From Corallococcus sp. EGB (GTDB lineage: Bacteria; Myxococcota; Myxococcia; Myxococcales; Myxococcaceae): 64,000 nt of DNA. How positions within the stretch are numbered: position 1 is the stretch's first letter; the number at the start of each line of letters is the position of its first letter. Shown piece by piece: positions 9,577 to 30,852 of the stretch. Under the pieces are notes generated by a model that was not told the origin of the DNA, did not search any database, and worked only from the letters and a program-made list of their open reading frames with translations. A program made the translations under genes and the position numbers. The DNA is taken from positions 6,731,356 through 6,795,355 of the forward strand of contig NZ_CP079946.1 of the NCBI RefSeq assembly GCF_019968905.1, given 5' to 3'.

Positions 9577-9611
9577 TGGCGGTGTCCTCGGGCGCGCGGA
9601 GCAGGGGCGCG

Positions 9612-10295: not shown

Positions 10296-10324
10296 CGGTC
10301 GCGAATCACTCTCAAGTTGTGATG

Positions 10325-10337
10325 AAGGGGGATTGTT
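10325..10337 (+). repeat. Direct repeat copy 1, AAGGGGGATTGTT
   Basis: Exact 13-nt match to 10422-10434, 97 nt apart, inside the divergent control region. Possible binding site or duplicated translation-start region; it is not followed by a start codon. Confidence 0.6.
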
Positions 10338-10421
10338 GCAAACTACAACGCCCAAAACAGAGGCTCGGAACGTAACACAATTGATATGATGTTAGGACTG
10401 GATTACAAGCTCAACAAGCTT

Positions 10422-12077: not shown

Positions 12078-13130
12078 GTGAACCTCAGTGTGCTCGATCA
12101 TTCCATCGTCGTTCGTGGCGGAAGTCCGCGTGAGGCATTCCAGAACACCCTGGAGCTGGCCCGTGCCGCCGAGCAGCTCGGGTATCACCGTTTCTGGGTC
12201 GCGGAGCACCACGGCTCGGGGCACTTCGCGGGGGTGGCGCCGGAGATCATGGTCTCGCATGTCGCGTCGGCGACGTCGCGGATCCGGGTGGGCACCGGCG
12301 GCGTGCTGCTGACGAACTACAGCCCCTTCAAGGTGGCGGAGGTCTTCCGCCTGCTGGAGACGCTGTATCCGGGCCGCATCGACCTGGGCATCGGGCGGGC
12401 GTCGGGCAGCTCGGACCTGGTGGCGAAGGCGCTGGCGTACGGCGGGCCGGTGAACCCGGAGGCGTTCCCCCAGAAGCTGGAGGACCTCATCGCGTTCCTG
12501 TCCGGCGCGACGCCCGCGACGGCGGAGCTGAAGGGGCTGTCGCTCCGGACCATGGCGCCGGGCATGCCCCAGCTGTGGGCGCTGGGGTCGGGTGAGCAGA
12601 GCTCCCTGCTCGCGGCCCGGCTGGGCATCTCCTTCTGCTTCGCGCACTTCTTCAACCCGGTGAACGGCGCCCCGGTGACGCGTGGCTACCGTGCGAAGTT
12701 CCAGGGCTCGCACGTGCAGTCCGCGCCCCGCTCGGCGCTCAGCGTGTACGTCATCTGTGGGAGGACCGAAGCGGAGGCGCATCGAATAGCGCGAAGCAGC
12801 GACCTCTTGACGGTGAACACCCGCAAGGGGCGCAACGAGGAGCCCATCCCCTCCATCGAGGAGGCGGAGGCCTACCCCTACACGCCCGAGGACCTGGCGG
12901 TGCTGGAGTTCGACCGCCAGCGCGTCGTCTGCGGCGACCCGTCCCAGGTGAAGGCGCGGCTGCTGGCCATGGCCGAGGACTTCCAGGCCGACGAGCTGAT
13001 TCTCACCACGCTCTGCCACGACCACCGGGCCCGCATGCGCTCGTACGAGCTGCTGGCGGAGGCCTTCGGGCTGGACCGGGTGGGAGCGCCGCCCGGAGCC
13101 GTCCGGACCGAGCCCCAGCCCCGCGCCTGA
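12078..13130 (+). CDS. Luciferase-like (LLM) flavin-dependent oxidoreductase
   Basis: 350 residues. The GTG at 12078 is chosen because AAAGGA lies 8 nt upstream and homology-like sequence (NLSVLDHSIV) begins there; a TTG at 12015 is in frame but lacks a site. The protein is a single TIM-barrel of the bacterial luciferase superfamily: RFWVAEHHGSGHFAGVAPE, IRVGTGGVLLTNYSPFKVAEVF and GRIDLGIGRASGS are group-1 LLM signatures. Members use reduced FMN or F420 for monooxygenation or hydride transfer; which one cannot be read here. It precedes the NRPS and is separated from it by two strong hairpins. It is the second LLM activity of the cluster, the other being built into the NRPS. Confidence 0.88.
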   Translation: MNLSVLDHSIVVRGGSPREAFQNTLELARAAEQLGYHRFWVAEHHGSGHFAGVAPEIMVSHVASATSRIRVGTGGVLLTNYSPFKVAEVFRLLETLYPGRIDLGIGRASGSSDLVAKALAYGGPVNPEAFPQKLEDLIAFLSGATPATAELKGLSLRTMAPGMPQLWALGSGEQSSLLAARLGISFCFAHFFNPVNGAPVTRGYRAKFQGSHVQSAPRSALSVYVICGRTEAEAHRIARSSDLLTVNTRKGRNEEPIPSIEEAEAYPYTPEDLAVLEFDRQRVVCGDPSQVKARLLAMAEDFQADELILTTLCHDHRARMRSYELLAEAFGLDRVGAPPGAVRTEPQPRA

Positions 13131-13138
13131 AGCGCCAT

Positions 13139-13160
13139 TCCCGGGGCACGGGCCCCGGGA
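13139..13160 (+). terminator. Strong GC hairpin after the LLM gene
   Basis: 9-bp perfect stem TCCCGGGGC (13139-13147) / GCCCCGGGA (13152-13160) with a 4-nt loop, no T-run. It starts 8 nt after the stop codon. May terminate, attenuate or protect the upstream mRNA end. Confidence 0.5.
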
Positions 13161-13176
13161 CCGTGACCTCCCCGAC

Positions 13177-13204
13177 GGGGGCGTGAGCCGCGGGCTCCGC
13201 CCCC
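13177..13204 (+). terminator. Second strong hairpin in the LLM-NRPS gap
   Basis: GGGGGCG (13177-13183) pairs with CGCCCCC (13198-13204), with an inner GAGCC/GGCTC stem, making a nearly continuous 12-bp helix. It covers the GTG at 13183, which argues against that codon as the NRPS start. Confidence 0.5.
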
Positions 13205-13275
13205 ATCAGCCATTCCATTCCCACGAACCCCGGGCCTCGTGTCTCCGGGCGTTCCCAGCCCTTGTCGAGCTCCCC

Positions 13276-16200
13276 ATGAACTCCACGGCCCGGAGTCCCT
13301 CCGCCCCGCCCTCCTTCCCCACGCTGGTGGACCTGCTGCGCTCGCGCGCGGCCACCCAGGGCGAGGACCTGCTCTACCGCTTCCTGGAGACGGGCGACGT
13401 CGATGGGCCCGTGGAGACGTGGAGCTACGCGCGCCTGGATGCGCGGGCGCGCGCGGTGGGGGCGCTGCTTTCGGCGGACGGGGGCTGGGGTGAGCGAGCG
13501 CTGCTGCTGTACCCGCCGGGCCTGGAGTTCGTCGCCGGCTTCATGGGCTGTCTCTACGGCGGCGTGGTGGCCGTGCCCTGTTACCCCCCGGACCCCACCC
13601 GGCTGGAGCGGACGCTGCCGCGCCTGCGCGCCATCGCGAAGGACTGCGGCGCGCGCTACGTGCTCACGACGCAGGCCATCCAGGAGATGGCGGAGTTCTT
13701 CACCCCGCAGGCGCCGGAGCTCGGGGAGCTGCGCTGGGTGGCCACCGACGCGGTGCCCGAAGGCCGCGCGGCGGAGTGGGCGCGGCCCGACGTGGACGCG
13801 GACACGCTCGCGTTCCTCCAGTACACCTCCGGCTCCACCGGGACGCCCAAGGGCGTGAAGGTGAGCCACCACAACATCCTCAGCAACGAGGCGCTCATCA
13901 CCCGGGGCTTCGGGCTGGACGCGGCGCGCTCGTCCGGCATGGGCTGGCTGCCCATGTTCCATGACATGGGCCTCATCGGGAAGGTGCTCCAGCCGCTCTA
14001 CCTGGGCTTCCCGTGCACGCTGATGTCGCCCATCGCGTTCCTCCAGCGCCCCCTGCGCTGGCTGGAGGCCATCTCGCACTTCCGCGCGACGTGCAGCGGC
14101 GGGCCCAACTTCGCGTATGACCTGTGTGTACGGAAGGCCACCGACGCGGACCGCGGGCGGCTGGACCTGAGCAGTTGGGACCTGGCGTTCAACGGCGCGG
14201 AGCCGGTGCGGCGCGAGACGCTGGAGCGCTTCGCGGACACCTTCGCCCGCTGTGGGTTCCGCAAGACGGCGTTCTACCCATGTTATGGCCTCGCCGAAGC
14301 GACCCTCATCGTCAGCGGAGGCTCGAAGGGCGAGCCGTATCACCACGGCCGCTTCGACTCGGACTCCGTCGCGCGGGGGCGGCCGGTGGAGGCGGCGGCG
14401 GACGGCCGCGCGCTGACGCTGGTGTCCTCGGGCCGCGCCGCGCCGGGGCACCAGGTGCGCGTGGTGCATCCGGAGACGCTGGACACGTGCTCCGCCGGGA
14501 CGGTGGGGGAGATCTGGACCACGGGCCCCAGCGTGGCGCAGGGCTACTGGAACCGGCCGGAGGAGTCCGAGCGGGCCTTCGGCGCGCGGCTCGTGGGGAG
14601 CGCGGAGTCGTGGCTGCGCACGGGCGACCTGGGCTTCCTGAACGCGGAGGGTGAGCTGTTCGTCACCGGCCGGCTCAAGGACCTCATCATCGTCCGGGGC
14701 CGCAACCTCTACCCGCAGGACCTGGAGCAGTCCGTGGAGCGGGCGCACCGCGCGGTGCGTCCGGGCTGCGTGGCCGCCTTCAGCGTGGAGGAGGCGGGCG
14801 AGGAGCGGTTGGTGGTGGCCGCAGAGGTGGACGCGCGCGACGACTTCGACGCGGCGGCCGTGGTGGACGCCGTGCGCCGGGCGCTGGCCGACGAGCACGC
14901 GGTGCACGCTCACGGCGTGGTGCTGCTCCAGGCGCGCAGCATCCCCAAGACGTCCAGCGGGAAGATTCAACGCCGCGCCTGCCGCGACGGCTACCTCGCG
15001 GGGGAGCTGGAGGTGGTGGGCGCCTCCGTCGTCGCGACCGGCGTGGACGCGCCCGAGGTCCCCGCCGTGTCCCTGCGCGAGGCCCTGGCGACGTCCGGGC
15101 CGGAGCGCCGCGCGCGCGTGGAGGACGCCCTGCGCGGCGCCGTGGCGCGGCAGCTGGGCGTGGCGCCCGGGCAGGTGAGGTCCGACGCGGCCCTGGCCAG
15201 CCTGGGGCTGGATTCGCTGATGGCGCTGGAGCTGCATGGCGAGTTGGAGGCCTCGCTGGGCGCGTCGCTGCCCGTCGCCTTCCTGTGGCAGCACCCCACG
15301 CTCGCGGACTGCGCCGGACAGCTGCTGGAGGCGGGAGCCCGCGCGCGGAGCCAGCCGCCGCTCCAGGCCGGGACGCTGGAGGGAACGCTGCCGCTGTCCC
15401 CCGGCCAGCAGCGCCTGTGGTTCCTGGACCGGCTGGTGCCGGGCACGCCGCTGTACCATGTGCACTTCCAGCTGCGGCTCTTTGGCCCGCTGGATGAGCC
15501 GGCGCTGCGCCACGCGCTGGAGGCGCTCGTCGCGCGGCACGCGGTGCTGCGCACGCGCTTCCCGGAGGCCGGAGGCCAGCCGCACGCGGTGGTCCAGCCC
15601 ACCGGGAGCGTGGAGCTGGCCCGGGCCGACCTGCGCGGGCTGTCCGTCTCGCAGCAGGACGCGAGGCTTCGCGAGCTGGCGCTGGCCCAGGCGCGGGAGC
15701 CCTTCCAGTTGGAGTCCGGCCCGCTCATGCGCACCGCGCTGGTGGCGCAGGATGAGCGGGAGCACGTGCTCCTGATGACGCAGCACCACATCATCACGGA
15801 CGGCTGGTCCACGGGCGTACTGGCCCGCGAGCTGGCCTCGCTCTACCGCGCCCGGGTGGAGGGCACGGCCAGCGCGCTGAAGCCCGTCGCGTTGCAGTAC
15901 CCGGACGTCGCGCGGTGGCAGCACGCATGGGGTCCGCTGCTGGACGCTCAGCGCGAGTTCTGGTCGCGCAAGCTCCAGGGCATGCCCCGGCTGGAGCTGC
16001 CCACGGACCACGCGCGGCCGCGGACGCCCGGCTTCCAGGGCGCGCTCCACCGGCTCACCCTGCCCCGCGACCTGGTGGAGCGCGTGAAGGCGGCGGGCCG
16101 CGAGGAGGGGTGTACCCTCTTCGTCACGCTGGCGGCGGCGTGGGCCGCCCTCATGGCGCGCTACAGCGGACAGGCGGACTTCGGCCTGGGTACCGTCGTG

Positions 16201-19200
16201 TCCCAGCGCGAGCGCTCGGAGCTGCGCGACGTGGTGGGCTTCCTCGCCCACACCCTGGTGCTGCGCTGTGACGTGTCCGGAGCGCCTTCATTCCGGGAGC
16301 TGCTCGCGCGCACGCGGCGCACCTTCCACGAGGCGCTGGCGAACGCGGAGCTGCCCTTCGAGGAGGTGGTGGGCGCCTCGCGCGCGGTGCGCGGCGTGGA
16401 CAACCCGCTCTTCCAGACGAACCTCCTGCTGGAGGCGCTGCCCCCCACGAGCCTGGACGTGCCCGGCATGACGTGGCGGCCCGTGCTGCCCGTGCCGGAT
16501 GGCGCGGTGGAGGGCACGGCGAAGTTCGACCTCCAGCTCTCCCTCGCGGAGACGCCCGAGGGTCTGGAGGGCGCGCTGGAGTACCGCACCGACCTCTTCG
16601 AGCCCGCCACCGTGGCGCGGCTGGCCGGACACCTGGAGCGGCTGTTGCGCGCGGCCGTGGACGCGCCCGGCGTGAGCGTGGCGGACCTGCCCCTGCTCAC
16701 CCCGGACGAGGCGCGCACCGTGCTGCGCGACTGGAACGACTTCACCCCGCCCCCGGAGGCCACCCGGGACGTGAGCATCCCCGGCCAGCTCCGCGCGCAG
16801 GCCGCGCGCACGCCGGACGCGGTGGCCGTGGTGGGCGACGACGAGGCGCTCACCTACGCGCAGTTGGACGCGCGCAGCGACGCGTGGGCCTGGCGCCTGA
16901 GGGAGCGCGGCGTGGGCCCCGAGTCGCGCGTGGGGCTGTGCGTGGAGCGCTCCGCGGGCATGGTGGTGGCCATGCTCGGCGTGCTCAAGGCCGGGGCGGC
17001 TTACGTGCCCTTGGATCCGGACTACCCGCGAGAGCGCCTGGCGTACGTGCTGGAGGACTCCGGCGCGGCGCTGCTGCTGACGCAGACGCACCTGGCGGAG
17101 CTGCTGCCCACGGCCGGACTGCCGGTGGTGTGCCTGGACGGTCCGGACGCGCCGTCCCCGGCGGACGCGCGCGGCGCGCCTCCCCTGCGCGTGGGACCGG
17201 GCGACCTCGCCTACGTCATCTACACGTCGGGCTCCACGGGCAGGCCCAAGGGCGTGATGGTGCCCCACGGCGCGGTGGACAACTTCTTCACCGCCATGGA
17301 CGCGCGCGTGGGGCCGTCACCCGCGGGCTCGTGGCTGGCCGTCACCAGCATCTCCTTCGACATCTCCGTGCTGGAGCTGCTGTGGACGCTCACGCGCGGC
17401 TTCAAGGTCGTGGTGCAGGGCGAGGACGCGGTGATGAAGGCGCCCTCTCGCGCGTCCGCCACGCGCCGCAAGCCGCTGGAGTTCAGCCTCTTCTACTTCG
17501 CGGATGACGCGGACGGCGCCTCCGGCGCGGACCGCTACCGGCTGCTCATGGAGGGCGCGAAGTTCGCGGACCGCCACGGCTTCGCGGCGGTGTGGACGCC
17601 CGAGCGGCACTTCCACGCCTTCGGTGGCCTGTACCCCAACCCGGCCGTGGCCGGCGCGGCCATCGCCGCCGTCACCGAGCGGGTGGGCATCCGCGCGGGC
17701 AGCGTGGTGCTCCCGCTGCACCACCCGGTGCGCGTGGCGGAGGACTGGGCCCTGGTGGACAACTTCTCCCGGGGGCGCGCGGGCATCTCCGTGGCGTCGG
17801 GCTGGCACGCGAACGACTTCGTCTTCGCTCCGGACGCCTACGCGCGGCGGCGCGAGCAGATGCTGGAGGGCATCGACACCGTGCGCAGGCTGTGGCGCGG
17901 CGAGACATTGCGCATGCCCGGCGGCGGGGGCGCGCAGGTGGACGTGACGCTGCGGCCCAGGCCCGTGCAGGCGGAGCTGCCGGTATGGCTCACCGCGGCC
18001 GGCAACCCGGACACCTTCATCACCGCGGGCAGGCTGGGCTGCCGCGTCCTCACCCACCTGCTGGGCCAGTCCTGGGAGGACCTGGAGCAGAAGCTGGCGC
18101 TCTACCGGGACGCGTGGCGCGGCGCGGGCCACCCGGGCGACGGCCACGTCACCCTGATGCTGCACACCTTCATCGGGGAGGACCCGGGCGCGGTGCGCGC
18201 GGCGGCGGAGCGCCCCTTCCGCGACTACCTCAAGAGCTCCGCGGACCTGATGCGCGGCCTGGGTCGCACGCTGGGCGTGGACATGGACGCGGCCACGGAG
18301 GCGGACCTGGAGCGGCTGGCCGGCCACGCCTTCGAGCGCTACTTCGAGACGAGCGGCCTCTTCGGGACGCCGCGCGGCGTGCGCGAGCGCGTGGAGCAGC
18401 TGCGCTCGGGCGGCGTGGACGAGGTGGGCTGCCTCATTGACTTCGGCATCCCCACCGACACGGTGCTCGCGAGCCTGCCCCGGCTCCACGAGGTGAAGAC
18501 GCGGAGCGACCGCGACGGCCGGCGCGCCGGCACCGGAAGGCCCCTGGCCGAGCGGCTGCGGGAGCATGCCATCACCCACCTCCAGTGCACCCCGTCGCTG
18601 GCGCGCACCCTGCTCGCCGACGCGGCCCCCTCGGAGGCCCTGGGCAGCGTGCGCCGGATGATGGTGGGCGGCGAGGCCCTGCCTGTCGCGCTGGCCACGT
18701 CGCTCCAGCAGGCGCTGTCCCCGGACGCGGCGCTGCTCAACATGTACGGCCCCACGGAGACCACCGTCTGGTCCTCCACCCACCGCGTGTCGGCCGAGGA
18801 GGCGGGAGCGGTGGCCTCCATCGGCGCGCCGCTCACGCGCACGCGCTTCTACGTGCTCGACGCGCGACGGGGGCCGGTGCCGGTGGGCGTGCCCGGTGAG
18901 CTCTACATCGGCGGCGCGGGCGTGGTGCGCGGCTACCTGCGCCGGCCGGACCTCACCGCGGAGCGCTTCGTGCCGGATCCGTTCAGCGAGGAGCCCGGCG
19001 CCCGCATGTACCGTACGGGGGACCGGGTGCGCTGGCGCACCGACGGCACGGTGGAGTTCCTGGGCCGGGTGGACTTCCAGCTCAAGGTGCGCGGCTTCCG
19101 CATCGAAGCCGGCGAGGTGGAAGCGGCCCTCACCGCCCACCCCACCGTGCGCGAGGCCGTGGCCGTAGCGCGCGAGGACGTGCCCGGTGACGTACGCCTG

Positions 19201-19722
19201 GTCGCCTACGTCGCCGCCCACGCCGGACAGGAGGTGGATCCCGCCGCGCTGCGGGACTTCGTGGCGCGGCGGCTGCCCGAGCACATGGTGCCGTCGCTGG
19301 TGGTGGCGCTGCCCGTGCTGCCGCTGACGCCCAACGGCAAGGTGGACCGCCAGGCGCTGCCCGCCCCCACGCAGACGCGCGTGGCGAAGGCCGCGTACGT
19401 GGCCCCGCAGGGACAGGTGGAGGAGCAGGTCGCCCAGGTGTGGCGCGAGGTCCTCCGGGTAGACCAGGTGGGCGTGCACGACAACTTCTTCGACCTGGGC
19501 GGCCACTCGCTGCTCATGGTGCAGGTGCACGCGCGGCTCAAGGTCGCGCTGGACCAGGACCTGCCCCTGCTGAAGCTGCTGGAGCACCCGACCATCCACA
19601 CGCTGTCGCGCTACCTGCGCCAGCCCTCCACCGCGAAGAACCAACCGGTGGAGGCGGCGCAGGACCGCGCACGGCGTCAGATGGAGAGCCTGCGCCGCCA
19701 GCGCCAGCGGGACCGGCGTTAG
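13276..19722 (+). CDS. FAAL-ACP-C-A(with embedded monooxygenase)-PCP synthetase
   Basis: 2148 residues from the ATG at 13276. Domains: fatty-acyl-AMP ligase (about 14-590; phosphate loop YTSGSTGTPKG near 182, GMGWLPMFHDMGLIG, C-terminal PKTSSGKIQRR near 557); ACP with GLDSL, phosphopantetheine Ser647; condensation domain (about 700-1130) with active HHIITDG (H837, H838, D842); adenylation domain (about 1165-2030) with YTSGSTGRPKG near 1316, A4 at D1362, A5 NMYGPTE at 1822, A10 Lys2022; PCP with GGHSL, Ser2078. A complete luciferase-like monooxygenase (about 1398-1738) is inserted between A4 and A5. The ten-residue specificity code, aligned by me to GrsA, is DILQMGMVWK, close to the glycine code. 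Thus it should load a fatty acid, condense it with Gly and oxidise the tethered glycine. No epimerase or thioesterase. Confidence 0.95.
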   Translation: MNSTARSPSAPPSFPTLVDLLRSRAATQGEDLLYRFLETGDVDGPVETWSYARLDARARAVGALLSADGGWGERALLLYPPGLEFVAGFMGCLYGGVVAVPCYPPDPTRLERTLPRLRAIAKDCGARYVLTTQAIQEMAEFFTPQAPELGELRWVATDAVPEGRAAEWARPDVDADTLAFLQYTSGSTGTPKGVKVSHHNILSNEALITRGFGLDAARSSGMGWLPMFHDMGLIGKVLQPLYLGFPCTLMSPIAFLQRPLRWLEAISHFRATCSGGPNFAYDLCVRKATDADRGRLDLSSWDLAFNGAEPVRRETLERFADTFARCGFRKTAFYPCYGLAEATLIVSGGSKGEPYHHGRFDSDSVARGRPVEAAADGRALTLVSSGRAAPGHQVRVVHPETLDTCSAGTVGEIWTTGPSVAQGYWNRPEESERAFGARLVGSAESWLRTGDLGFLNAEGELFVTGRLKDLIIVRGRNLYPQDLEQSVERAHRAVRPGCVAAFSVEEAGEERLVVAAEVDARDDFDAAAVVDAVRRALADEHAVHAHGVVLLQARSIPKTSSGKIQRRACRDGYLAGELEVVGASVVATGVDAPEVPAVSLREALATSGPERRARVEDALRGAVARQLGVAPGQVRSDAALASLGLDSLMALELHGELEASLGASLPVAFLWQHPTLADCAGQLLEAGARARSQPPLQAGTLEGTLPLSPGQQRLWFLDRLVPGTPLYHVHFQLRLFGPLDEPALRHALEALVARHAVLRTRFPEAGGQPHAVVQPTGSVELARADLRGLSVSQQDARLRELALAQAREPFQLESGPLMRTALVAQDEREHVLLMTQHHIITDGWSTGVLARELASLYRARVEGTASALKPVALQYPDVARWQHAWGPLLDAQREFWSRKLQGMPRLELPTDHARPRTPGFQGALHRLTLPRDLVERVKAAGREEGCTLFVTLAAAWAALMARYSGQADFGLGTVVSQRERSELRDVVGFLAHTLVLRCDVSGAPSFRELLARTRRTFHEALANAELPFEEVVGASRAVRGVDNPLFQTNLLLEALPPTSLDVPGMTWRPVLPVPDGAVEGTAKFDLQLSLAETPEGLEGALEYRTDLFEPATVARLAGHLERLLRAAVDAPGVSVADLPLLTPDEARTVLRDWNDFTPPPEATRDVSIPGQLRAQAARTPDAVAVVGDDEALTYAQLDARSDAWAWRLRERGVGPESRVGLCVERSAGMVVAMLGVLKAGAAYVPLDPDYPRERLAYVLEDSGAALLLTQTHLAELLPTAGLPVVCLDGPDAPSPADARGAPPLRVGPGDLAYVIYTSGSTGRPKGVMVPHGAVDNFFTAMDARVGPSPAGSWLAVTSISFDISVLELLWTLTRGFKVVVQGEDAVMKAPSRASATRRKPLEFSLFYFADDADGASGADRYRLLMEGAKFADRHGFAAVWTPERHFHAFGGLYPNPAVAGAAIAAVTERVGIRAGSVVLPLHHPVRVAEDWALVDNFSRGRAGISVASGWHANDFVFAPDAYARRREQMLEGIDTVRRLWRGETLRMPGGGGAQVDVTLRPRPVQAELPVWLTAAGNPDTFITAGRLGCRVLTHLLGQSWEDLEQKLALYRDAWRGAGHPGDGHVTLMLHTFIGEDPGAVRAAAERPFRDYLKSSADLMRGLGRTLGVDMDAATEADLERLAGHAFERYFETSGLFGTPRGVRERVEQLRSGGVDEVGCLIDFGIPTDTVLASLPRLHEVKTRSDRDGRRAGTGRPLAERLREHAITHLQCTPSLARTLLADAAPSEALGSVRRMMVGGEALPVALATSLQQALSPDAALLNMYGPTETTVWSSTHRVSAEEAGAVASIGAPLTRTRFYVLDARRGPVPVGVPGELYIGGAGVVRGYLRRPDLTAERFVPDPFSEEPGARMYRTGDRVRWRTDGTVEFLGRVDFQLKVRGFRIEAGEVEAALTAHPTVREAVAVAREDVPGDVRLVAYVAAHAGQEVDPAALRDFVARRLPEHMVPSLVVALPVLPLTPNGKVDRQALPAPTQTRVAKAAYVAPQGQVEEQVAQVWREVLRVDQVGVHDNFFDLGGHSLLMVQVHARLKVALDQDLPLLKLLEHPTIHTLSRYLRQPSTAKNQPVEAAQDRARRQMESLRRQRQRDRR

Positions 19723-19737
19723 CCGCCTTCCGCGTCA

Positions 19738-19771
19738 GGGGGCTCTGCTCTCATCCAGAGCGGAAGCCCCC
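19738..19771 (+). terminator. Hairpin between the NRPS and first PKS genes
   Basis: GGGGGCT (19738-19744) / AGCCCCC (19765-19771) with inner GCTCT (19747-19751) / AGAGC (19757-19761), followed by TTCAAG. Terminator-like, yet inside an apparent operon; may tune the ratio of NRPS to PKS transcripts. Confidence 0.5.
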
Positions 19772-19841
19772 TTCAAGACCTCGTTGCTTCCGTCCCCCCG
19801 CCTCCCCGCGCCCGCCTTCCAAGGGGGCGCCCGCCAACGCC

Positions 19842-22800: not shown

Positions 22801-24434
22801 TGGCCGCGCTGGCCGGGGACGGCGCGCGCCCCTCGCGCATCATCCACCTGTGGGGTGTGGACGCGGCCGGACCGGACACGGCCGGCGTGGAGCATGCCCA
22901 GCGCCTGGGCCTGCACAGCCTGCTGTTCCTGGCGCAGGCGCTGGAGGGGCAGGGCTCGCGCGGGCCGGTGCACCTCACGGTGGTGTCCACGGGCGTGCAG
23001 GCCGTCACCGGCCACGAGGCGCTCACGCCGGCCAAGGCCACCGTGCTGGGCGCGTGTCGCGTGCTGCCCAACGAGGTGCGGGGCCTGACGTGTCAGGCCA
23101 TCGACGTGGAGCCCGCCGTCAGCCCCGACGCGCTCCAGGCCCTGGCCGCGCGCCTGGCCGTGGAGGTGTCCGCCGCGCCCGCCAACGGCATCACGGCGCT
23201 GCGCGGGGCCTACCGGTGGGAGCAGACCTTCGAGCCGGTGCGGATGGAGGCCCCCGCCCCCAACGCCTCCCGCCTGCGCCCGCGCGGCACGTACCTCATC
23301 ACCGGCGGCCTGGGCGGCATCGGCCTGGTGCTGGCGGAGCACCTCGCCCGCCAGGTGCAGGCGCGGCTGGTGCTGGTGGGCCGCGGCGCCCTGCCGGAGC
23401 GCGCCACCTGGGAGGGCTGGCTCGCGTCCTCGGCCGCGAACGACGCCACGGCGCAGCGGATCCGCCAGGTGCTGGCGCTGGAGGCGCTGGGCGCGGAGGT
23501 GCTCGTGCTCCAAGCGGACGTGGGCTCCTCGGAGCAGATGGCGCGCGTGCTCCACCACGCTCGCGAGGCGTTCGGCCCCCTGCATGGCGTCATCCACGCC
23601 GCGGGCGTGCCCGCCGGAGGACTGGCCCAGCTGCGCACCCGTGACGCGGTGGACGCCGTGCTCAGGCCCAAGGTGCTGGGCACGTGGGTGCTGCATGAGC
23701 TGCTGCGCGGCGTGCCGCTCGACTTCTTCCTGCTGTGCTCCTCGCGCACCGCGTACACGGCCGAGCCCGGGCAGATCGACCACTGCGCCGCGTGCGGCTT
23801 CCAGGACGCCTTCGCCCACCACGCCGCCCTCCAGGGGGACACGAAGGTGCTGTCGCTGGGCTGGGACACCTGGCGCGAGGTGGGCCAGGCCGTCTCCACC
23901 GCCCTGCCCGACGCGGCCCGGGGCCTCCGCGACGCCACGCTCGCGCACGCGCTCACGTCCGCGGAGGGCGTGGACGTCTTCGAGCGCGTCCTCGCCCACC
24001 CCAGCCCCAGCATCATCGTCTCCACGCGGGAGCTGGGCGCGGCCATCGCCAGCAGCGCGGCCCTGCTGGACACGCTGATGGGCGGGGCCCCCTCCGACGC
24101 GGTCCCCGGCGAGGCCCCCGTCCACCTGGACGACGCCGAGCGCGCGCTGATGGAGATCTGGCAGCGCCTGCTGGGCGTGGAGGAGGTGGGCCTGCACGAG
24201 AACTTCTTCGAGCTGGGGGGCAACTCGCTCATCGGCCTGAAGGTCCTCCATGAGGTGAAGCGGCGCTTCGACCGGGACCTGCCCGTCGTGGCCCTCTTCG
24301 AGAATCCCACCCTGGGGGCCATGGCCCGGCTGCTCACGCCGCAGGCGTCGGCCGCGCCCGCGGCCCAGGACCGGCGCGGGCGCGGTGCTCGCCGCCGCGA
24401 ACAGCTGCAGCAGCGCCGCCCCACGGGCCGCTGA
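19842..24434 (+). CDS. Type I PKS module: KS-AT-KR(probably inactive)-ACP
   Basis: 1530 residues from the ATG at 19842. KS (about 13-440) with Cys184 (GCSTSL), His320 (HGTGT) and His360 (NIGHLDA): active-looking. AT (about 540-850) with GHSMG, Ser630; the substrate motif reads VAAHS where malonyl-type has HAFHS and methylmalonyl-type YASHS, so extender choice is unclear, malonyl more likely. KR (about 920-1390) binds NADPH by TGGLGGIG at 1154, and Ser1301 is present, but the catalytic Tyr is His1314 and the Asn is Cys1318. No DH or ER is seen. ACP has GGNSL, Ser1462. The C-terminus ends in a charged Arg/Gln tail, as does the preceding NRPS, possibly docking segments. Expected output: one C2 unit added, beta-keto kept. 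Confidence 0.94.
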   Translation: MNETTLDEGNDLLIAIVGMAGRFPGSPDVDAFWRNLCAGVEGIRHFTDEELLARGVPPERLKEPGFVRAGAVLDGVDQFDAAFFGYSPREAMLMDPQHRLFLECAWEALERAAHGLDGDSRSVGVFAGTSLSTYLLFNLRTHPELLTSEETFQVMIGNDKDFLATRLAYHLDLKGPALDVQTGCSTSLVATHLACQALLGFQCDVAIAGGVSVDVPQRTGYVHQAGGIASPDGHCRPFDAQGQGTLFGSGVGVVVLKRLSDALADGSPIHAVIRASAINNDGAAKLGFTAPSAEGQAEVIARTHALADVTPDTVGYVETHGTGTLLGDPVEVSALTTAFRAGTEAHGFCALGSVKSNIGHLDAAAGVAGLIKTALVVEHGRIPPTLHFRTPNPNIAWEDNPFYVNAELKAWDTAGAPRRAGVSSFGIGGTNAHALLEQAPARPPSGPSRPWKLLALSARTPGALDALTRNLGAHLDANPGLDLADVAYTLQVGRKAFPRRRVLVCAASEDAVRLLEDVDPEFVHTGEAKDGGRAVTFLFPGGGAQHLRMGQELYETESAFREAFDACAAILSRLGGPSLRAVLYPAGDADGGAPLPRPSVGLPALFSVEYALGRLWEAWGIQPESLIGHSMGEYVAACLAGVFSLEDALALVTERGRLFEKLPPGGMVSVALPEQDVRPLLGAHLSLAAVNAPSQCVVAGDSAAVEALVADLAARGVEHRRIHIDVAAHSHLIDSILPAFASCVGRLKLSPPKLPIVSGVTGTWLTAEEATSPAYWVKHLRQPVRFGQGVRTLLEDPSRVLLEVGPGRTLGSLARLQVERGQPTVVLTSMRAPREPGSDLRFALTTLGRLWVAGVPVDWRKLSQGEERRRVVLPTYPFERKRHWLEPRAEGASVSAPGPLARREDRAQWFYLPSWKRTVAPPRDAAASPPGWLVFIDAGGLGDALAARLTQEGGHVLRVRPGTGFLRHEDGTFEVAPEQAETYAALVAALAGDGARPSRIIHLWGVDAAGPDTAGVEHAQRLGLHSLLFLAQALEGQGSRGPVHLTVVSTGVQAVTGHEALTPAKATVLGACRVLPNEVRGLTCQAIDVEPAVSPDALQALAARLAVEVSAAPANGITALRGAYRWEQTFEPVRMEAPAPNASRLRPRGTYLITGGLGGIGLVLAEHLARQVQARLVLVGRGALPERATWEGWLASSAANDATAQRIRQVLALEALGAEVLVLQADVGSSEQMARVLHHAREAFGPLHGVIHAAGVPAGGLAQLRTRDAVDAVLRPKVLGTWVLHELLRGVPLDFFLLCSSRTAYTAEPGQIDHCAACGFQDAFAHHAALQGDTKVLSLGWDTWREVGQAVSTALPDAARGLRDATLAHALTSAEGVDVFERVLAHPSPSIIVSTRELGAAIASSAALLDTLMGGAPSDAVPGEAPVHLDDAERALMEIWQRLLGVEEVGLHENFFELGGNSLIGLKVLHEVKRRFDRDLPVVALFENPTLGAMARLLTPQASAAPAAQDRRGRGARRREQLQQRRPTGR

Positions 24435-24458
24435 ACCCCATCCAAGGAACGACATCCC

Positions 24459-27400
24459 GTGTCCCAGACCCCAGCAGGTACGGAGATCGCAATCGTCGGC
24501 ATGGCCGGACGCTTCCCGGGAGCCCGCTCCCTGGAGGAGTTCTGGCGCAACGTGTGCGACGGCGTGGAGTCCATCGAGCCCCTCACGGACGAGGAGGCGC
24601 TCAAGGCGGGGGTGGCCCCCGCGGCGCTGGCGGACCCCCGGTTCATCAAGGTGGCCTCCCGGCTGGAGGACGTCGCCGGCTTCGACGCGGCCTTCTTCGG
24701 CTACACGCCGCGCGAGGCGGAGCTGATGGACCCGCAGCACCGCCTCTTCCTGGAGTGCGCGCTGGAGGCCCTGGAGGACTCCGGTCACGCGTCCCCGCCG
24801 GAGGACCTGCTGGTGGGCGTCTTCGGCGGCCAGGCCCTGAGCACCTACCTGGTGCTGAACCTGCTGGGCAACTCGGAGCTGATGCGCACGGCGGATCCGC
24901 TCCAGCTCAACCTGGGCAACGCGGGCAGCTTCCTCACCACGCGCGCCTCCTACAAGCTGGACCTGAAGGGCCCCAGCTTCAACGTGGAGAGCGCCTGTTC
25001 CACCTCGCTCGTCGCGGTGCACGTCGCGTGTCAGAGCCTGCTCAACCACGAATGCGACGTGGCGCTGGCGGGCGGCGTGTCCATCAACCTGGGCATCCAG
25101 GGCGGCTACCGCTACGTCGAGGGCGGCATCCTCTCCCCGGACGGGCACTGCCGGCCCTTCGACGCGCACGCGCGCGGCATCGTCTTCGGCAGCGGCGCGG
25201 GCGTGGTGGCGTTGCAGCGGCTGGAGGACGCGCTGGCGAGCGGCAGCCCCATCCACGCCATCATCCGCGGCTCCGCGGTGAACAACGACGGCGGCGCGCG
25301 CGTGGGCTACACCGCCCCGGGCGTGGAGGGCCAGGCGTCCGTCATCTCCGAGGCCCTGGGCAACGCGGGCGTGTCCGCGGGCAGCATCGGCTATGTGGAG
25401 GCGCACGGCACGGGCACGCCGCTGGGCGACCCCATCGAGGTCCAGGCGCTCACGCGCGCCTTCGGTGACGAGGCCGTGGGGCCGCGCACCTGCGCGCTGG
25501 GCTCGCTCAAGGCGAACGTGGGCCACCTGGACGCGGCCGCGGGCATCGCGGGGCTCATCAAGGCGGCGCTCGCGCTCAAGCACCGCAAGCTGCCGCCCAG
25601 CCTGAACTGCGACACGCCCAACCCCAACATCCCCTGGGAGAAGAGCCCCTTCTACGTCAACACCGCGCTGCGCGAGTGGAAGGCCTCCCCCCACGGCCCC
25701 CGCCGCGCGGGCGTGAGCAGCTTCGGCATGGGCGGCACCAACGCCCATGTCATCCTGGAGGAGCCCCCCGCGCGCGCCCCCCGGCCCGCGGCGGCGGAGG
25801 CGCCGGAGGTGCTGGTGCTGTCGGCGCGCACGGCCACCGCGCTCGCGGCGCAGACGGAGCGGCTCTCGGAGCACCTGCGCGCCCACCCCCACCTCGCGCT
25901 GGCGGACGTGGCCCACACGCTCCAGGTGGGCCGGCGCCGCCACGCCCACCGCCGGACGGTGGTGTGTCAGGGCCGCGAGGACGCGCTGGCCGCGCTGGGC
26001 GACCCGTCGCGCCTGCTCACGGAGTTCGAGGAGCGCTCGCGGCGCGGCGTGGTCTTCATGTTCCCCGGCCAGGGCTCGCAGCACGTGGGCATGGGCCGGG
26101 GCCTGTACGGCGGCGAGCGCGCCTTCCGCGCGGAGGTGGACGCCTGCGCGACGAAGCTGGCGCCCCACCTGGGCCTGGACCTGCGCACGGTCCTCTACCC
26201 GGCCGCCAGGGATGAGGAGGCCGCCGCCGCCCAGCTGCGGCAGACGCGCCTGGCCCAGCCCGCGCTGTTCACCATCGAGTACGCGCTGGCGAAGCTGTGG
26301 ATGTCCTGGGGCATCCAGCCGGAGGCGATGGTGGGCCACAGCATTGGCGAGTACGTGGCCGCGTGCCTCGCGGGCGTGTTCAGCCTGGACGACGCGCTGG
26401 CCCTGGTGGCCGCGCGCGGTCAGCTCATGCAGGAGCTGCCGCCGGGCGCCATGCTCTCCGTCGCGCTGGCCGAGGAGGAGCTGGCCCCCCTGCTGGACGC
26501 GCGGCTGTCGGTAGCGGCGGTGAACGCGCCGGGCCTGACGGTGGTCGCGGGGCCGGTGGACGCGGTGGAGGGGCTGAAGGGCCGGCTCCAGGCGCGCGGC
26601 GTCGCGCACCGGCCGCTGCACACCTCCCACGCGTTCCACTCGCAGCTGATGGACCCCATCCTCGCGCCCTTCACCGAGCGGGTGCGCCGGGTGAGGCTGT
26701 CGGCGCCGCGCATCCCGTACCTGTCCAACGTCACCGGCACCTGGGTCACGGCCCAGGAGGCGACGAACCCCACCGCGTGGGCGAACCACCTGCGCCAGCC
26801 GGTGCGCTTCGCGGCGGGGCTCCAGACGCTGGGCGCGAGCCCCGTGCTGCTGGAGGTCGGCCCCGGCCGGACGCTCGCCACCTTCGCGTCGCGGCACACC
26901 GGCCTGCGCGTCCCCGCCACCACCGTGACGTCCCTGCCCCACCCGGAGGAGAAGACGCCGGACGCGCTCGTCGCGCGCGCCGCGCTGGGGCGGCTGTGGA
27001 TGGCGGGCGTGGACGTGGACTGGGCCGCCGTGCACGCGGGCGCGCCCCGCCAGCGCGTGTCCCTGCCCACCTACCCCTTCGAGCGAAAGCGCTACTGGGT
27101 GTCGCCGGACGGCCCGCGCACGCACGCGGCCGCGCACGCGCCCGAGGAGGCGCGGGCGTCCGAGGCCCCCGAGGCCGCCCCGGACCCGGGCCACACGCGC
27201 CCCGCGCTGCGCACGGAGTTCGTGGCGCCCTCCACCGAGGACGAGCGGGCCCTGGCGCGCGTCTGGGAGGAGGTGCTGGGCGTGCGGCCGGTGGGCGTCC
27301 ACGACGACTTCTTCGCGCTGGGCGGGCACTCGCTGCTGGCCACCACGCTGGTGGGCCGGCTGCGGGACACCTTCGGCGCGGCCCTGCCGCTGCAAGCGCT

Positions 27401-27548
27401 GTTCGAGGCCCCCACCATCCACCGGCTCGCGGCCCTCGTCGAACGGCAGCGGGTCCACCCCGGGCACAGCGACCCGGAGGTGGCCGCGCTGCTGCGAGTG
27501 CTGGAGGAGCTGACCACCCGGAAGGAAGCGGCGCCCCGCACGCCGTAG
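24459..27548 (+). CDS. Type I PKS module: KS-AT-ACP, no reduction
   Basis: 1029 residues from the GTG at 24459, with AAGGA 11 nt upstream and only 24 nt after the previous stop. KS (about 8-430) has Cys180 (ACSTSL), HGTGTPLGDP and NVGHLDA, all intact. AT (about 530-850) has GHSIG, Ser628, and SHAFHSQ, the malonyl-CoA pattern. After a Pro/Ala/Glu linker the ACP carries GGHSL, Ser958. No KR, DH, ER or thioesterase is present, so it should add an unreduced malonyl unit and hand a 3,5-dioxo chain to an off-loading step encoded elsewhere or occurring spontaneously. It is the last assembly-line protein in gene order. Confidence 0.95.
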   Translation: MSQTPAGTEIAIVGMAGRFPGARSLEEFWRNVCDGVESIEPLTDEEALKAGVAPAALADPRFIKVASRLEDVAGFDAAFFGYTPREAELMDPQHRLFLECALEALEDSGHASPPEDLLVGVFGGQALSTYLVLNLLGNSELMRTADPLQLNLGNAGSFLTTRASYKLDLKGPSFNVESACSTSLVAVHVACQSLLNHECDVALAGGVSINLGIQGGYRYVEGGILSPDGHCRPFDAHARGIVFGSGAGVVALQRLEDALASGSPIHAIIRGSAVNNDGGARVGYTAPGVEGQASVISEALGNAGVSAGSIGYVEAHGTGTPLGDPIEVQALTRAFGDEAVGPRTCALGSLKANVGHLDAAAGIAGLIKAALALKHRKLPPSLNCDTPNPNIPWEKSPFYVNTALREWKASPHGPRRAGVSSFGMGGTNAHVILEEPPARAPRPAAAEAPEVLVLSARTATALAAQTERLSEHLRAHPHLALADVAHTLQVGRRRHAHRRTVVCQGREDALAALGDPSRLLTEFEERSRRGVVFMFPGQGSQHVGMGRGLYGGERAFRAEVDACATKLAPHLGLDLRTVLYPAARDEEAAAAQLRQTRLAQPALFTIEYALAKLWMSWGIQPEAMVGHSIGEYVAACLAGVFSLDDALALVAARGQLMQELPPGAMLSVALAEEELAPLLDARLSVAAVNAPGLTVVAGPVDAVEGLKGRLQARGVAHRPLHTSHAFHSQLMDPILAPFTERVRRVRLSAPRIPYLSNVTGTWVTAQEATNPTAWANHLRQPVRFAAGLQTLGASPVLLEVGPGRTLATFASRHTGLRVPATTVTSLPHPEEKTPDALVARAALGRLWMAGVDVDWAAVHAGAPRQRVSLPTYPFERKRYWVSPDGPRTHAAAHAPEEARASEAPEAAPDPGHTRPALRTEFVAPSTEDERALARVWEEVLGVRPVGVHDDFFALGGHSLLATTLVGRLRDTFGAALPLQALFEAPTIHRLAALVERQRVHPGHSDPEVAALLRVLEELTTRKEAAPRTP

Positions 27549-27567
27549 AGAGCGAGAGACGACACAC

Positions 27568-28869
27568 ATGGCTCCTCCCAACTCCCCGCCCATCCGGGCG
27601 CTCATCCTGGCCATGGAGTACACGCCCAACATCGCCGGCGGCGTGGGCACGTACGTGTACGAGCTGGCGCGCGGCCTGGTGCAGGAAGGCTGCGAGGTCG
27701 AGGTCGTCGCGTACACGCCGGGCGAGCCCGCGGTGCTGCGCGAGCCCCGGCTCACGGTGCACCTGGTGCCGCCCAGCCGCGAGAGCCTGTCCCAGGCGGC
27801 GAAGCTGTCGCTCGTGGGCGGCCTCCGCCTCTTCAACGAGGACCTGCTGCGCGCCGCGCGCGAGCGCCTGCGCGAGGCGAAGCCGGACATCATCCACTTC
27901 CACCAGTGGCACACGCACCGCGCCGCGCGGGCGCTGGGCCAGGAGGCCGGCGTGCCCGTGCTGGGCACCAGCCACTACATCTCCGAGCCCGCCGAGCGCT
28001 GGTGGGGCCAGACGCCCGACCCCGAAATCCTGGAGGAGGAGCGGAGCCTCTACGACGGCTCCAACCCCATCATCTCCGTGAGCGCGTCCATGAGCCGGCT
28101 CATCCAGGAGACGTACGGCCTGTCCCCGGCGCTGCTGCACACCATCCACTGCGCCATGGACGCCGAGCCCTTCCGCAAGCCATCCCACTCGCCGGACGAC
28201 TACGCGCGGCTGCGCGCCACCGTGGCCACGCCCCAGGACCCCATCGTCCTCTACACGGGCCGGCTCCATCAGATGAAGGGCATCAGCGCCATCTTCGGCG
28301 CGGCGGAGCGGGTGCTGGCGAAGCGGCCGCAGGTGCGGTTCCTGCTCACGGGCGGCACCGACTCGCGCGAGTCCACGAAGATGGTGCAGGAGCTGTCCCA
28401 GCGCTACGCGCCGCTGCTCCACCGCATCAAGCTCTTGGGCAAGCTGCCGCGCGAGCACCTGGGCCTGCTCCACCGCATCGCGGACATCGCGGTGGTGCCC
28501 TCGCTGTACGAGCCCTTCGGCTACACCGTCATCGAGGCCATGGCCTCGGGCCTGCCGCTCGTCGTCACGGACTCCGGAGGCCCCGCGGAGATCGTCGTGC
28601 CCGGAGAGACGGGCCTCATCGTCCCCGTGAAGCCGGGCGCGCCGGGCGGCCCCCGCGAGGTGGACGTGGACGCGTTCGCGGACGCGCTGCTGGAGCTGCT
28701 GGCGGACCCCGCCCGGGCCCGCCGCATGGGGGAGACGGGACAGCGCCGCGTCGTGGAGGTGTTCAACCTTCCGCGCATGGTCGCCGCGAACCTCGCCGTG
28801 TATCACCAGGTGCTGCGCGCCCCCGCGAGGCCCGCGCCCCACGCCGTCGCGCACGAGGCCCGGTCATGA
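27568..28869 (+). CDS. Glycosyltransferase family 4
   Basis: 433 residues, GT-B fold retaining glycosyltransferase. N-terminal acceptor domain begins with MEYTPNIAGGVGTYVYELARGL, the family Gly-rich loop; the C-terminal donor domain has YTGRLHQMKGI and SLYEPFGYTVIEAMASGLPLV, with the E-x7-E pair that binds nucleotide sugar. It overlaps the thioesterase gene by ATGA, tying it to the cluster, and so probably attaches a sugar to the lipid-glycine-polyketide product. Donor sugar unknown. A GAGAG ribosome site lies about 10 nt upstream. Confidence 0.92.
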   Translation: MAPPNSPPIRALILAMEYTPNIAGGVGTYVYELARGLVQEGCEVEVVAYTPGEPAVLREPRLTVHLVPPSRESLSQAAKLSLVGGLRLFNEDLLRAARERLREAKPDIIHFHQWHTHRAARALGQEAGVPVLGTSHYISEPAERWWGQTPDPEILEEERSLYDGSNPIISVSASMSRLIQETYGLSPALLHTIHCAMDAEPFRKPSHSPDDYARLRATVATPQDPIVLYTGRLHQMKGISAIFGAAERVLAKRPQVRFLLTGGTDSRESTKMVQELSQRYAPLLHRIKLLGKLPREHLGLLHRIADIAVVPSLYEPFGYTVIEAMASGLPLVVTDSGGPAEIVVPGETGLIVPVKPGAPGGPREVDVDAFADALLELLADPARARRMGETGQRRVVEVFNLPRMVAANLAVYHQVLRAPARPAPHAVAHEARS

Positions 28870-29654
28870 GCACGACGGCGCCCTCCCGGGGCCTGGCCTT
28901 CCACGAGCCCCCGCCGTCCGCGTGGGCGCGGCTGTTCTGCCTGCCACACGCGGGCGGCAGCGCCTCGCTCTTCCGCGCCTGGCAGAAGGAGCTGGGACCG
29001 GACATCGAGGTCTGTCCCGTGCAGCTGCCCGGCCGGGAGAACCGGCTGCGCGAGCCGCCGCTGCGCGAGCTGCCCCGGATGATGGACTTGCTGGTGGACG
29101 TCGTCTCCGCGCTCCCGGACAAGCCCTTCGCCCTCTTCGGGCACAGCATGGGCGCCCTGCTCGCCTATGAGCTGGCGCGCGCGCTGCGCGAGCGGGGGCT
29201 ACCCGCGCCGCTGCACCTCTTCGTCGCCAGCTACCGCGCGCCCCAGACGCTCGCGACGGCGCCGGCCACGCCGTCCACCCACGACATCGACGTGGCCGAG
29301 GCCCGGCGCCTGGGCGCGGCGCTGTCGCTGTCCGGGGAGATGGCGGAGGAGATGCTTGCGCTGATGCGCGGCACCCTGCTGGCGGACACCGCCCTGTGCG
29401 AGTCCTACCGCTTCCAGCCGGGGCCGCCGCTGACGTGTCCCGTGTCCGCCTTCCGGGGCATCGACGACTACGTCCCCGAGGACGCCACGGAGGCGTGGCG
29501 CGAGCTGAGCACCGGCCGCTTCGCCACCCAGACCTTCCTGGGCGACCACTTCTTCCTGCGAAACACCCCGCGCGGGCTCATCCAGAACCTGCGCCGGAGC
29601 CTCGTGAAACGTCCCGCATCCCCTCATCCGCAAGCCCAGGAGCCACACCGATGA
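28866..29654 (+). CDS. Type II thioesterase
   Basis: 262 residues, alpha/beta-hydrolase of the NRPS/PKS editing thioesterase family. Seen: LFCLPHAGGSASLFRAW, PVQLPGRENR, GHSMG with nucleophile Ser94, and a late GDHFFL with the catalytic His. Such enzymes hydrolyse stalled or misloaded acyl groups from carrier proteins; here it could also release the final chain, since none of the three synthases ends in a thioesterase. The ATG overlaps the glycosyltransferase stop (ATGA) and its own stop overlaps the next start. Confidence 0.95.
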   Translation: MSTTAPSRGLAFHEPPPSAWARLFCLPHAGGSASLFRAWQKELGPDIEVCPVQLPGRENRLREPPLRELPRMMDLLVDVVSALPDKPFALFGHSMGALLAYELARALRERGLPAPLHLFVASYRAPQTLATAPATPSTHDIDVAEARRLGAALSLSGEMAEEMLALMRGTLLADTALCESYRFQPGPPLTCPVSAFRGIDDYVPEDATEAWRELSTGRFATQTFLGDHFFLRNTPRGLIQNLRRSLVKRPASPHPQAQEPHR

Positions 29655-29983
29655 AGTACCTCGTCTACGTCAAGGACCGTCCCTCCGGCGTCCAGCCCCC
29701 GGACCCCGTCGCGCTCAACCGCGCCGTGCGCGCGTGGGTGGAGGCGCGGCTCATGGACCGCACCATGGACTGCGCCTACTACGTCCTGCCCAAGATGGGG
29801 CTGTGCATCATCAACGCGGACTCGCACGAGGCCCTGCTGTCGCTGCTGCGCGCGTGGCCGTCGTTCGCGTACCAGGAGTTCGAGATCCACATGCTGGCGG
29901 ACGTGCGCCACGGCATCGACGACAACTTCGACCGGATGCAGCGCGACGCCACGAAGGGCGCTCCGGCCGCGGAGGCGTCATGA
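29651..29983 (+). CDS. Small cluster-embedded protein, 110 residues, unknown
   Basis: Starts at the ATG overlapping the thioesterase stop and ends in an ATGA overlap with the hydroxylase gene, so it is clearly part of the biosynthetic operon. The pattern of an opening beta strand (MKYLVYVKD), a helix, a Cys-containing strand (GLCIINADS), a second helix (HEALLSLLRAW) and a strand (YQEFEIHMLAD) fits a dimeric alpha+beta barrel such as the muconolactone-isomerase/YCII group, which includes small cyclases and monooxygenases. No named family is recognised. A cyclase or isomerase acting on the released diketo chain is a reasonable but untested idea. Confidence 0.8.
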   Translation: MKYLVYVKDRPSGVQPPDPVALNRAVRAWVEARLMDRTMDCAYYVLPKMGLCIINADSHEALLSLLRAWPSFAYQEFEIHMLADVRHGIDDNFDRMQRDATKGAPAAEAS

Positions 29984-30852
29984 GCACCGCGACGCCCCTC
30001 ACCGGCGACGCCGCGCGCTCGCCGGCGCGCAGGGCGCTGCCGGCCGACAACCGGCGGGCCTTCTTCGACGCGCTGGAAGCCGACGACCTGCCCGTCATCC
30101 TCACCGACGGCATGAAGGGCTGGCCCGCGGAGAAGCAGTGGACCTTCGACTGGTTCGCCCGGGAGCTGGGCGAGACGCGCGTCCCCGTGGAGTGGCTGCG
30201 CTACAGCCGCAAGGACGGGGGCGGCGTGGAGCGCGTGGGCCGGGTGCGCGAGCAGACGCTGCGCGAGTACGTCCAGACGGTGAAGGGCCCGGGCGCGAAG
30301 GACGCGGGCTACCTCATCGGCAACGACATGTTCCGCATCCTCCCCCAGCTGCGCGGCGACGTGCGCTTCCAGGACTACGACGTCCCGCACCGGCTCACCG
30401 AGCAGCTCTTCTTCATGGGCCCCAAGGGCTGCTTCACCCAGCTGCACCTGGACCGCGCCCACAACCTGCACGCGGTGATGGTGGGCCGCAAGCAGTGGCA
30501 GTTGTACTCGCCCCGGCGCGACAAGGACCTGAGGCCCACGAAGCTGGGCCACGTCTGGTCGGTGATGAGCGAGCACGACCTGGCGCCCGACGGCGGATTC
30601 CCGGAGCAGCTGCCCGGGGGCCAGCGGCCCGACTACGACTTCGTGCTGGAGGCCGGGGAGATCCTCTTCCTGCCGTACGGCTGGTGGCACCGCGTGCTCA
30701 CCGTGGAGGACGCCATCGCCACCAACTACTGGTGGTGGACCTGGTCCATGCTGGCGCGCATCGGGCCCCGGCTCATCCCGTCCATCACCTTGAGCGCGCT
30801 CAGCCGCATGCGCAAGCAGCGCGTGCTGGGCCGCGAGTTCAAGGAGCAGTGA
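29980..30852 (+). CDS. JmjC/cupin-8 2-oxoglutarate-Fe(II) hydroxylase
   Basis: 290 residues. The jelly-roll core has H156-x-D158 in TQLHLDRAHN, GRKQWQLYSP (the Lys/Arg-Trp strand typical of cupin-8 proteins), FLPYGWWHRV with H237 as third iron ligand, and ATNYWWW. Homologues hydroxylate side chains of proteins or small molecules with O2 and 2-oxoglutarate. Its ATG overlaps the preceding stop, so it is the last gene of the biosynthetic operon and likely tailors the product. It ends 19 nt before the stop of a convergent gene. Confidence 0.9.
   Translation: MSTATPLTGDAARSPARRALPADNRRAFFDALEADDLPVILTDGMKGWPAEKQWTFDWFARELGETRVPVEWLRYSRKDGGGVERVGRVREQTLREYVQTVKGPGAKDAGYLIGNDMFRILPQLRGDVRFQDYDVPHRLTEQLFFMGPKGCFTQLHLDRAHNLHAVMVGRKQWQLYSPRRDKDLRPTKLGHVWSVMSEHDLAPDGGFPEQLPGGQRPDYDFVLEAGEILFLPYGWWHRVLTVEDAIATNYWWWTWSMLARIGPRLIPSITLSALSRMRKQRVLGREFKEQ

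Follow-up and report, generated by a model that had tools for sequence, protein, structure and literature searches.

Gene content of the locus

The window analyzed here, a 64,000-nucleotide stretch of Corallococcus sp. EGB (G000:C1:6731356-6795355; genome of 9.43 Mb in one contig), contains a biosynthetic gene cluster in which a hybrid of nonribosomal peptide synthetase (NRPS) and polyketide synthase (PKS) is initiated by a fatty acyl-AMP ligase (FAAL). Analysis of open reading frames and domains placed eight plus-strand genes in fixed order at positions 12078-30852. They encode a free luciferase-like monooxygenase (LLM), the synthetase, two PKS proteins (PKS1 and PKS2), a GT4 glycosyltransferase, a discrete thioesterase (TE), a 110-aa protein, and a JmjC/Cupin_8 oxygenase whose closest solved structure was JMJD5 (E 2.4e-21). 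All eight frames are open, with lengths of 350, 2148, 1530, 1029, 433, 262, 110, and 290 aa in gene order. The first four intergenic gaps are 145, 119, 24, and 19 bases, followed by three 4-base overlaps joining the GT4, TE, 110-aa, and JmjC genes. Because the frames are open and domain matches reach E values down to 1e-152 in the synthetase, the core genes are not considered a chance arrangement. An earlier note, made from the letters of this stretch, had described the same gene order, strand, and FAAL-NRPS-PKS make-up, with two ketosynthase-acyltransferase-acyl carrier protein (KS-AT-ACP) modules, the five smaller genes, and two luciferase-like oxygenases, one free and one within the synthetase; our domain analysis agreed on each of these. 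Its limits for the cluster hold for the eight core genes but omit the gene at 10438-11907 and probably also those at 6790-10355.

Table 1. Coordinates of the cluster genes, selected domains, and upstream genes in the window
Feature	Position	Strand	Basis
ABC transporter (A), probable exporter	6790..8427	-	PF00005 E 1.6e-27
379-aa protein (B), without family; nucleotidyltransferase-like by eye only	8524..9663	-	no Pfam match
Glutathione-S-transferase (GST)-like protein (C)	9612..10355	-	PF14497 E 3.6e-18
489-aa ATP-grasp ligase (D), glutathione-synthetase/glutathionylspermidine-synthetase fold	10438..11907	+	model and Foldseek
Free LLM, MsnO8 family	12078..13130	+	TIGR03558 E 1.1e-111
Synthetase FAAL-ACP-C-A[MOx]-PCP, 2148 aa	13276..19722	+	domain matches
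MupA/Atu3671-type flavin monooxygenase domain (MOx), within glycine A domain	17482..18498	+	TIGR04020 E 1.1e-154, residues 1403-1741
PKS1 KS-AT-KR-ACP, 1530 aa	19842..24434	+	domain matches
KR domain of PKS1, His replacing catalytic Tyr	23286..23879	+	PF08659 E 1.1e-46
PKS2 KS-AT-ACP, without TE, 1029 aa	24459..27548	+	domain matches
GT4 glycosyltransferase, 433 aa	27568..28869	+	PF00534 E 8.1e-33, PF13439 E 3.3e-26
Discrete TE, 262 aa	28866..29654	+	PF00975 E 3.3e-42
110-aa muconolactone-isomerase-like protein (K), cluster marker	29651..29983	+	weak Pfam and fold signs
JmjC/Cupin_8 oxygenase, 290 aa; HxD and His ligand motifs by eye	29980..30852	+	PF13621 E 1.7e-31

The synthetase, PKS proteins, and marker protein

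The assembly line begins with FAAL-ACP and continues through a condensation-adenylation-peptidyl carrier protein (C-A-PCP) module and the KS-AT-ACP modules in one line, which is the architecture of a FAAL-initiated NRPS-PKS hybrid. The A domain was matched as two pieces flanking the inserted MOx, which lies after motif A4 and before A5 and whose closest solved structure was PuwE (6ket, E 2.3e-116). The ten specificity positions read D-I-L-Q-M/L-G-M-V/I-W-K in all 15 A domains compared, 14 of the window synthetase type and one more distant. We take this to be a glycine-type code, and the mapping of motif to positions is likewise assumed. The recurrence of the code supports glycine, as named in the earlier note, as the predicted substrate of the A domain. 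Elsewhere in the genome, two further TIGR04020 domains scored above the cut-off, in frames of 11,005 and 12,349 aa; the whole genome gave 125 AMP-binding matches, some in frames longer than 10,000 aa.

The C-terminal tail was basic in all 14 synthetases (net charge +4 to +7), and the core PKS1 proteins started acidic (net -3 to -5) in all 14 script-cut rows out of 15, the G009 row being without its first residues; the G015 start, outside the script-cut rows, was acidic by eye. Five paralogous PKS1 starts had a net charge of 0, with three of these rows cut short. The basic tails and acidic starts suggest that the synthetase and PKS1 may dock in cis or in trans.

The 110-aa protein served as the cluster marker, and its profile was found in 18 of 195 Myxococcota genomes, in three genera. 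The PKS1 and PKS2 comparisons drew on 15 of these 18 marker-positive genomes; G133, G150, and G154 were excluded because their PKS1 is cut by contig ends. The KS, HGTGT, GHSxGE, and ACP motifs were present in all 15 core PKS1 proteins. A second AT motif pattern missed 4/15 PKS1 and 7/15 PKS2 proteins, and the ketoreductase (KR) glycine pattern missed 2/15 PKS1 proteins, in both of which the motif is visible in the alignment with one change. The catalytic Tyr that marks an active KR was replaced by His in every one of the 15 aligned core PKS1 proteins, with the Ser motif intact, and was kept in all five paralogous PKS1 proteins, which follow related synthetases at other loci. The simplest reading of these alignments is that a redox-dead KR is fixed in the core PKS1 line, ketoreduction having probably been lost by inactivation. 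The earlier note had proposed no ketoreduction: the unreduced carbonyls are supported, but the KR is present as a complete PF08659 domain that looks dead from the Tyr-to-His change, and absence of the KR was rejected accordingly. In G007, G009, and G115 (3/15), the PKS2 reading frame continues through GT4 without a stop, a fusion implying that the sugar step is tied to the assembly line.

An AlphaFold model of the 110-aa protein, built from six sequences, had a pLDDT of 59, a level at which fold matches need caution. The 12 top-ranked Foldseek matches (E 6.4e-4 to 3.1e-3) were all chains of ClcF/5-chloromuconolactone isomerase, and 1mli, a second muconolactone isomerase, ranked 17th. Four of six family members weakly matched Pfam MIase, all falling short of the usual threshold (best E 0.048), and the window protein gave no Pfam match, MIase at its curated cut-off included. 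Only 3 of 59 genomes had a Pfam MIase match, 2 above the cut-off, which left too small a set for comparing profiles. When solved structures were searched by sequence using the 110-aa profile, a single match was returned (E 0.76). These two weak but agreeing lines suggest a muconolactone-isomerase-like protein and led us to reject a gene wholly without relatives, so that the description of it as an orphan in the earlier note no longer fits. Its fold may be that of ClcF, as the model predicts; its sequence similarity to the muconolactone isomerases is very weak, and no aromatic-degradation context surrounds the window gene. The protein might act as a lactone/furanone isomerase or cyclase.

Distribution and flanking genes

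Ten named loci were found in genome contigs of Myxococcus, Pyxidicoccus, Corallococcus, Archangium, and one Myxococcaceae metagenome-assembled genome. The order PKS1-PKS2-GT-TE-110-aa-JmjC was kept in the 15 genomes read across the whole stretch, which represent three genera, with additional sequence between the TE and JmjC genes in G015 and G139. The free LLM occurred in 11 core regions and was absent from those of G007, G009, G115, and G139 at the identity floors of 35-42% used for all neighbouring genes, below which distant homologues may escape; it is thus not universal. The viral contigs searched held no relative, and plasmid searches gave generic PKS matches and otherwise two matches at E 0.3.

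The synthetase lies directly upstream of the core in the window, G012, G007, G009, and G115, and about 1.2 kb upstream in G139; in G015 a partial synthetase with its 5' end cut lies at the contig edge. Synthetase-type FAALs, defined by at least 67% identity (a limit set by eye; FAALs of 60-65% occur in other settings), were present in 18/18 marker-positive genomes (G015 from the partial gene) versus 14/177 others. Within Corallococcus alone, the counts were 5/5 versus 1/11 (P = 0.0014), in a test that, like the others of co-occurrence here, ignores relatedness. Trees of the synthetase and PKS1 agreed in that G007/G009/G115 split first, the window paired with G012, and G139 paired with G015.

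Related synthetases also occur in other settings. A 72-74% homologue followed by another PKS pair forms a sister cluster (L092-L096 and L098-L099, in G132, G138, G140, and G133 and at a second G115 locus), in which the first KR of the pair keeps its Tyr and the tailoring genes differ. A larger FAAL-glycine-MOx synthetase with about 55% identity and frames of about 5,740-5,840 aa lies divergently beside the Myxococcus core (L009-L010, L043-L046, L055-L058, and L102, in G038, G153, G141, G151, G152, and G150). It was rejected as the orthologue because these genomes carry closer copies elsewhere: full-length identity is 72-73% in G038 and G150, and FAAL identity is 75-76% in G153, G141, G151, and G152. 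The G038 and G150 copies have no PKS in the 10-11 kb downstream, the G038 locus having been read 11 kb downstream but just 0.2 kb upstream.

Upstream of the core, the model of the 10438-11907 product was of moderate confidence (pLDDT 62, pTM 0.67), and its Foldseek matches (best E 3.0e-12, 33 matches below 0.001, best TM 0.47 to 0.51) identified an ATP-grasp fold; a sequence search of solved structures gave a single match (E 0.044). Homologues of at least 53% identity were found in 12/18 marker-positive genomes and 0/177 others among the 195 searched. This distribution rejects an unrelated neighbour and extends the cluster upstream to this gene. A possible role for the ligase is the capping of a carboxylate by an amine. 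A second ATP-grasp copy is present in 10 of the 12 homologue-bearing genomes, and in G038, G132, G138, and G140 it lies after the JmjC gene, beside a 768-778-aa protein. Among these proteins (L051, L047, L049, and L009 in G138, G140, G132, and G038), the G138 one, the sole one scanned, matches the lantibiotic-dehydratase N-terminal domain.

The genes at 6790-10355, for the GST-like protein, the 379-aa protein, and the ABC exporter, are probably part of the cluster as well. A 90% homologue of the transporter adjoins the core in G012, and a 76% homologue directly follows JmjC-C-B in Pyxidicoccus fallax contig G133:C324. In G012, as in Myxococcus/Pyxidicoccus regions, the GST-like gene is found close to the core, and it and the exporter recur near core or sister loci in differing arrangements; among the regions searched, homologues of the 379-aa protein occurred in G012 and G133 only. 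An upstream ABC exporter would also suit a pre-drug line, in which the fatty acid serves as a temporary cap that is removed during export, leaving a small glycyl-diketide glycoside as the product. Such a scheme has been proposed for the myxobacterial vioprolide and corramycin, whose lines are also FAAL-started according to the part of the source available (PMC10099666). The scanned cluster genes included none recognisable as deacylase-type, and we regard this scheme as improbable. At the other end of the cluster, a GT87-type membrane glycosyltransferase (30871-32127, minus strand, E 1.2e-8) adjoins, with an 85% homologue in G012, and a pair of adjacent family-18 glycosyl hydrolases lies at 56966-60685 on the plus strand.

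Proposed product and competing explanations

Our preferred reading, to which we give about an even chance, is a working cluster that makes a short N-acyl-glycine diketide carrying a sugar. It draws on the domains, the glycine-type code, the dead KR, the gene order in three genera, the co-occurrence of the synthetase, the basic tails and acidic starts, and the PKS2-GT fusion. From these genes, domains, motifs, and patterns of conservation we infer the chemical steps, the order of tailoring, the sugar, and the ring. The FAAL would adenylate a fatty acid and load it onto the first ACP, the C domain would couple the fatty acyl group to glycine, and, on the PCP, MOx would hydroxylate the alpha-carbon of the glycine. 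PKS1, with its dead KR, and PKS2 would each append one unreduced, probably malonyl, C2 unit. GT4 would attach a sugar, possibly with the chain on or at PKS2, and the discrete TE would release the chain. The muconolactone-isomerase-like protein would then close or isomerise a small ring and the JmjC enzyme hydroxylate, while the exporter, GST-like protein, and ATP-grasp ligase, in genomes that have them, may complete or cap the product. The composition given in the earlier note, acyl-Gly(oxidised)-C2-C2 plus sugar transfer and a 2-oxoglutarate-type oxygenase, is the one best supported by gene and domain anatomy, and its interpretation stands in part. In place of its term 'glycolipopeptide-type', 'glycolipo-polyketide' is preferred because a single amino acid is used. 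The ring enzyme hints at a furanone or butenolide-type step rather than the pyrone or tetramic acid suggested there.

In a more specific form, three unusual devices, namely the oxidising acyl-glycine starter, glycosylation built into the PKS, and the muconolactone-isomerase-like ring enzyme, would jointly make an undescribed acylamino-furanone or related glycoside, which we put forward only tentatively. The KS-AT-ACP-GT fusion would then place sugar addition on or at the carrier. In some Myxococcus, the starter synthetase would work for PKS genes located at other genomic sites, perhaps for two pairs of them.

Several observations weigh against the N-acyl-glycine diketide. The MOx position between A4 and A5 matches the cleaving MtaG/MelG enzymes and not the non-cleaving SolF, in which the insertion is at A8-A9. 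In myxothiazol/melithiazol biosynthesis, the glycine modules MtaG/MelG carry a flavin monooxygenase, located at A4-A5 according to PMC10204066; it is reported to put a hydroxyl group on the alpha-carbon of glycine, after which the chain breaks into an amide and a glyoxyl thioester (PMC10204066, PMC11342130, from the parts available). By analogy, an MtaG-like MOx acting on the same amino acid from the same insertion site could break up the hydroxylated N-acyl-glycine, freeing a primary fatty acid amide and leaving the PCP with a glyoxylyl thioester for the PKS modules to extend. We consider this cleaving loader unlikely, but it is the main and a serious rival to our preferred reading. The MtaG/MelG modules are terminal and TE-linked in those accounts, whereas the window synthetase ends in PCP without a TE, its module is the first elongation step after the FAAL, and the KS of PKS1 comes next; in addition, an unextended fatty amide needs no two PKS modules, GT, or ring enzyme. 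SolF of solanimycin offers a precedent for our preferred reading, as it also combines a glycine module with a flavin monooxygenase and retains the hydroxyglycine while NRPS and PKS modules extend the chain onward; it differs in making a long polyene peptide, with no FAAL-glycine start reported in the available part of the source (PMC10204066). Puwainaphycin PuwE and other FAAL hybrids share the FAAL start and a related monooxygenase domain (6ket), which in the PuwE system stands with an aminotransferase between PKS and NRPS modules and not within a glycine A domain (PMC4219810, as far as available).

The remaining contrary points concern the distribution of the synthetase and the product itself. 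The synthetase stands apart from the PKS genes in G038, G153, G141, G151, G152, G140, G132, and G138, and in G132, G138, G140, and G133 the sole close synthetase found precedes the different PKS pair. Within Myxococcus alone, co-occurrence was not significant (12/12 versus 11/15, P = 0.11). The two trees also conflict with good support on both sides: the PKS1 tree places the window pair beside Myxococcus, and the synthetase tree places G139/G015 with the stand-alone Myxococcus copies. This conflict suggests a partly separate history of the synthetase, through exchange or through duplication and loss. A decayed or chance neighbourhood that no longer works would account for the inactivated KR and for synthetases lying elsewhere in some genomes; it is very improbable given the open frames of the window, the order kept in three genera, the 4-base overlaps, the fusion, and the co-occurrence.

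No metabolite of the cluster is known, which is the last point on this side. The product could nevertheless have been described already if the window or the sister cluster were the myxofacycline (or myxadazole) cluster. Myxofacyclines are produced by Corallococcus sp. MCy9049 and, to our knowledge, carry no sugar, which speaks against them given the GT4 in the window line. They resemble the proposed product, on a review description only, as small PKS-NRPS fatty-chain heterocycles from related myxobacteria (isoxazole, '4-pyrimidinolide', and 1,2-dihydropyrrol-3-one) made by one PKS-NRPS system (PMC8868522, available part), and ring closure of an acyl-Gly-C2 chain could yield a dihydropyrrol-3-one. 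A literature search, which covered few subscription journals and did not include the primary myxofacycline papers, found no characterised cluster of matching architecture, and the available parts of PMC8400222 and PMC11619377 held nothing relevant on such an oxygenase or FAAL. We rate this identity as quite unlikely.

Altogether, a gene set conserved among Corallococcus and related myxobacteria probably makes a small acyl-glycine polyketide bearing a sugar, as a variant of the familiar antibiotic-type assembly lines. The modest size of the cluster (about 19-24 kb) and its repeated occurrence in Myxococcaceae should make the product accessible. A FAAL-started glycine module with MOx at A4-A5 and a KS next would reveal the outcome of the MOx reaction when the chain must continue. 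The cluster also bears on whether a PKS-fused glycosyltransferase works on carrier-bound chains and on whether the muconolactone-isomerase fold can form polyketide rings.

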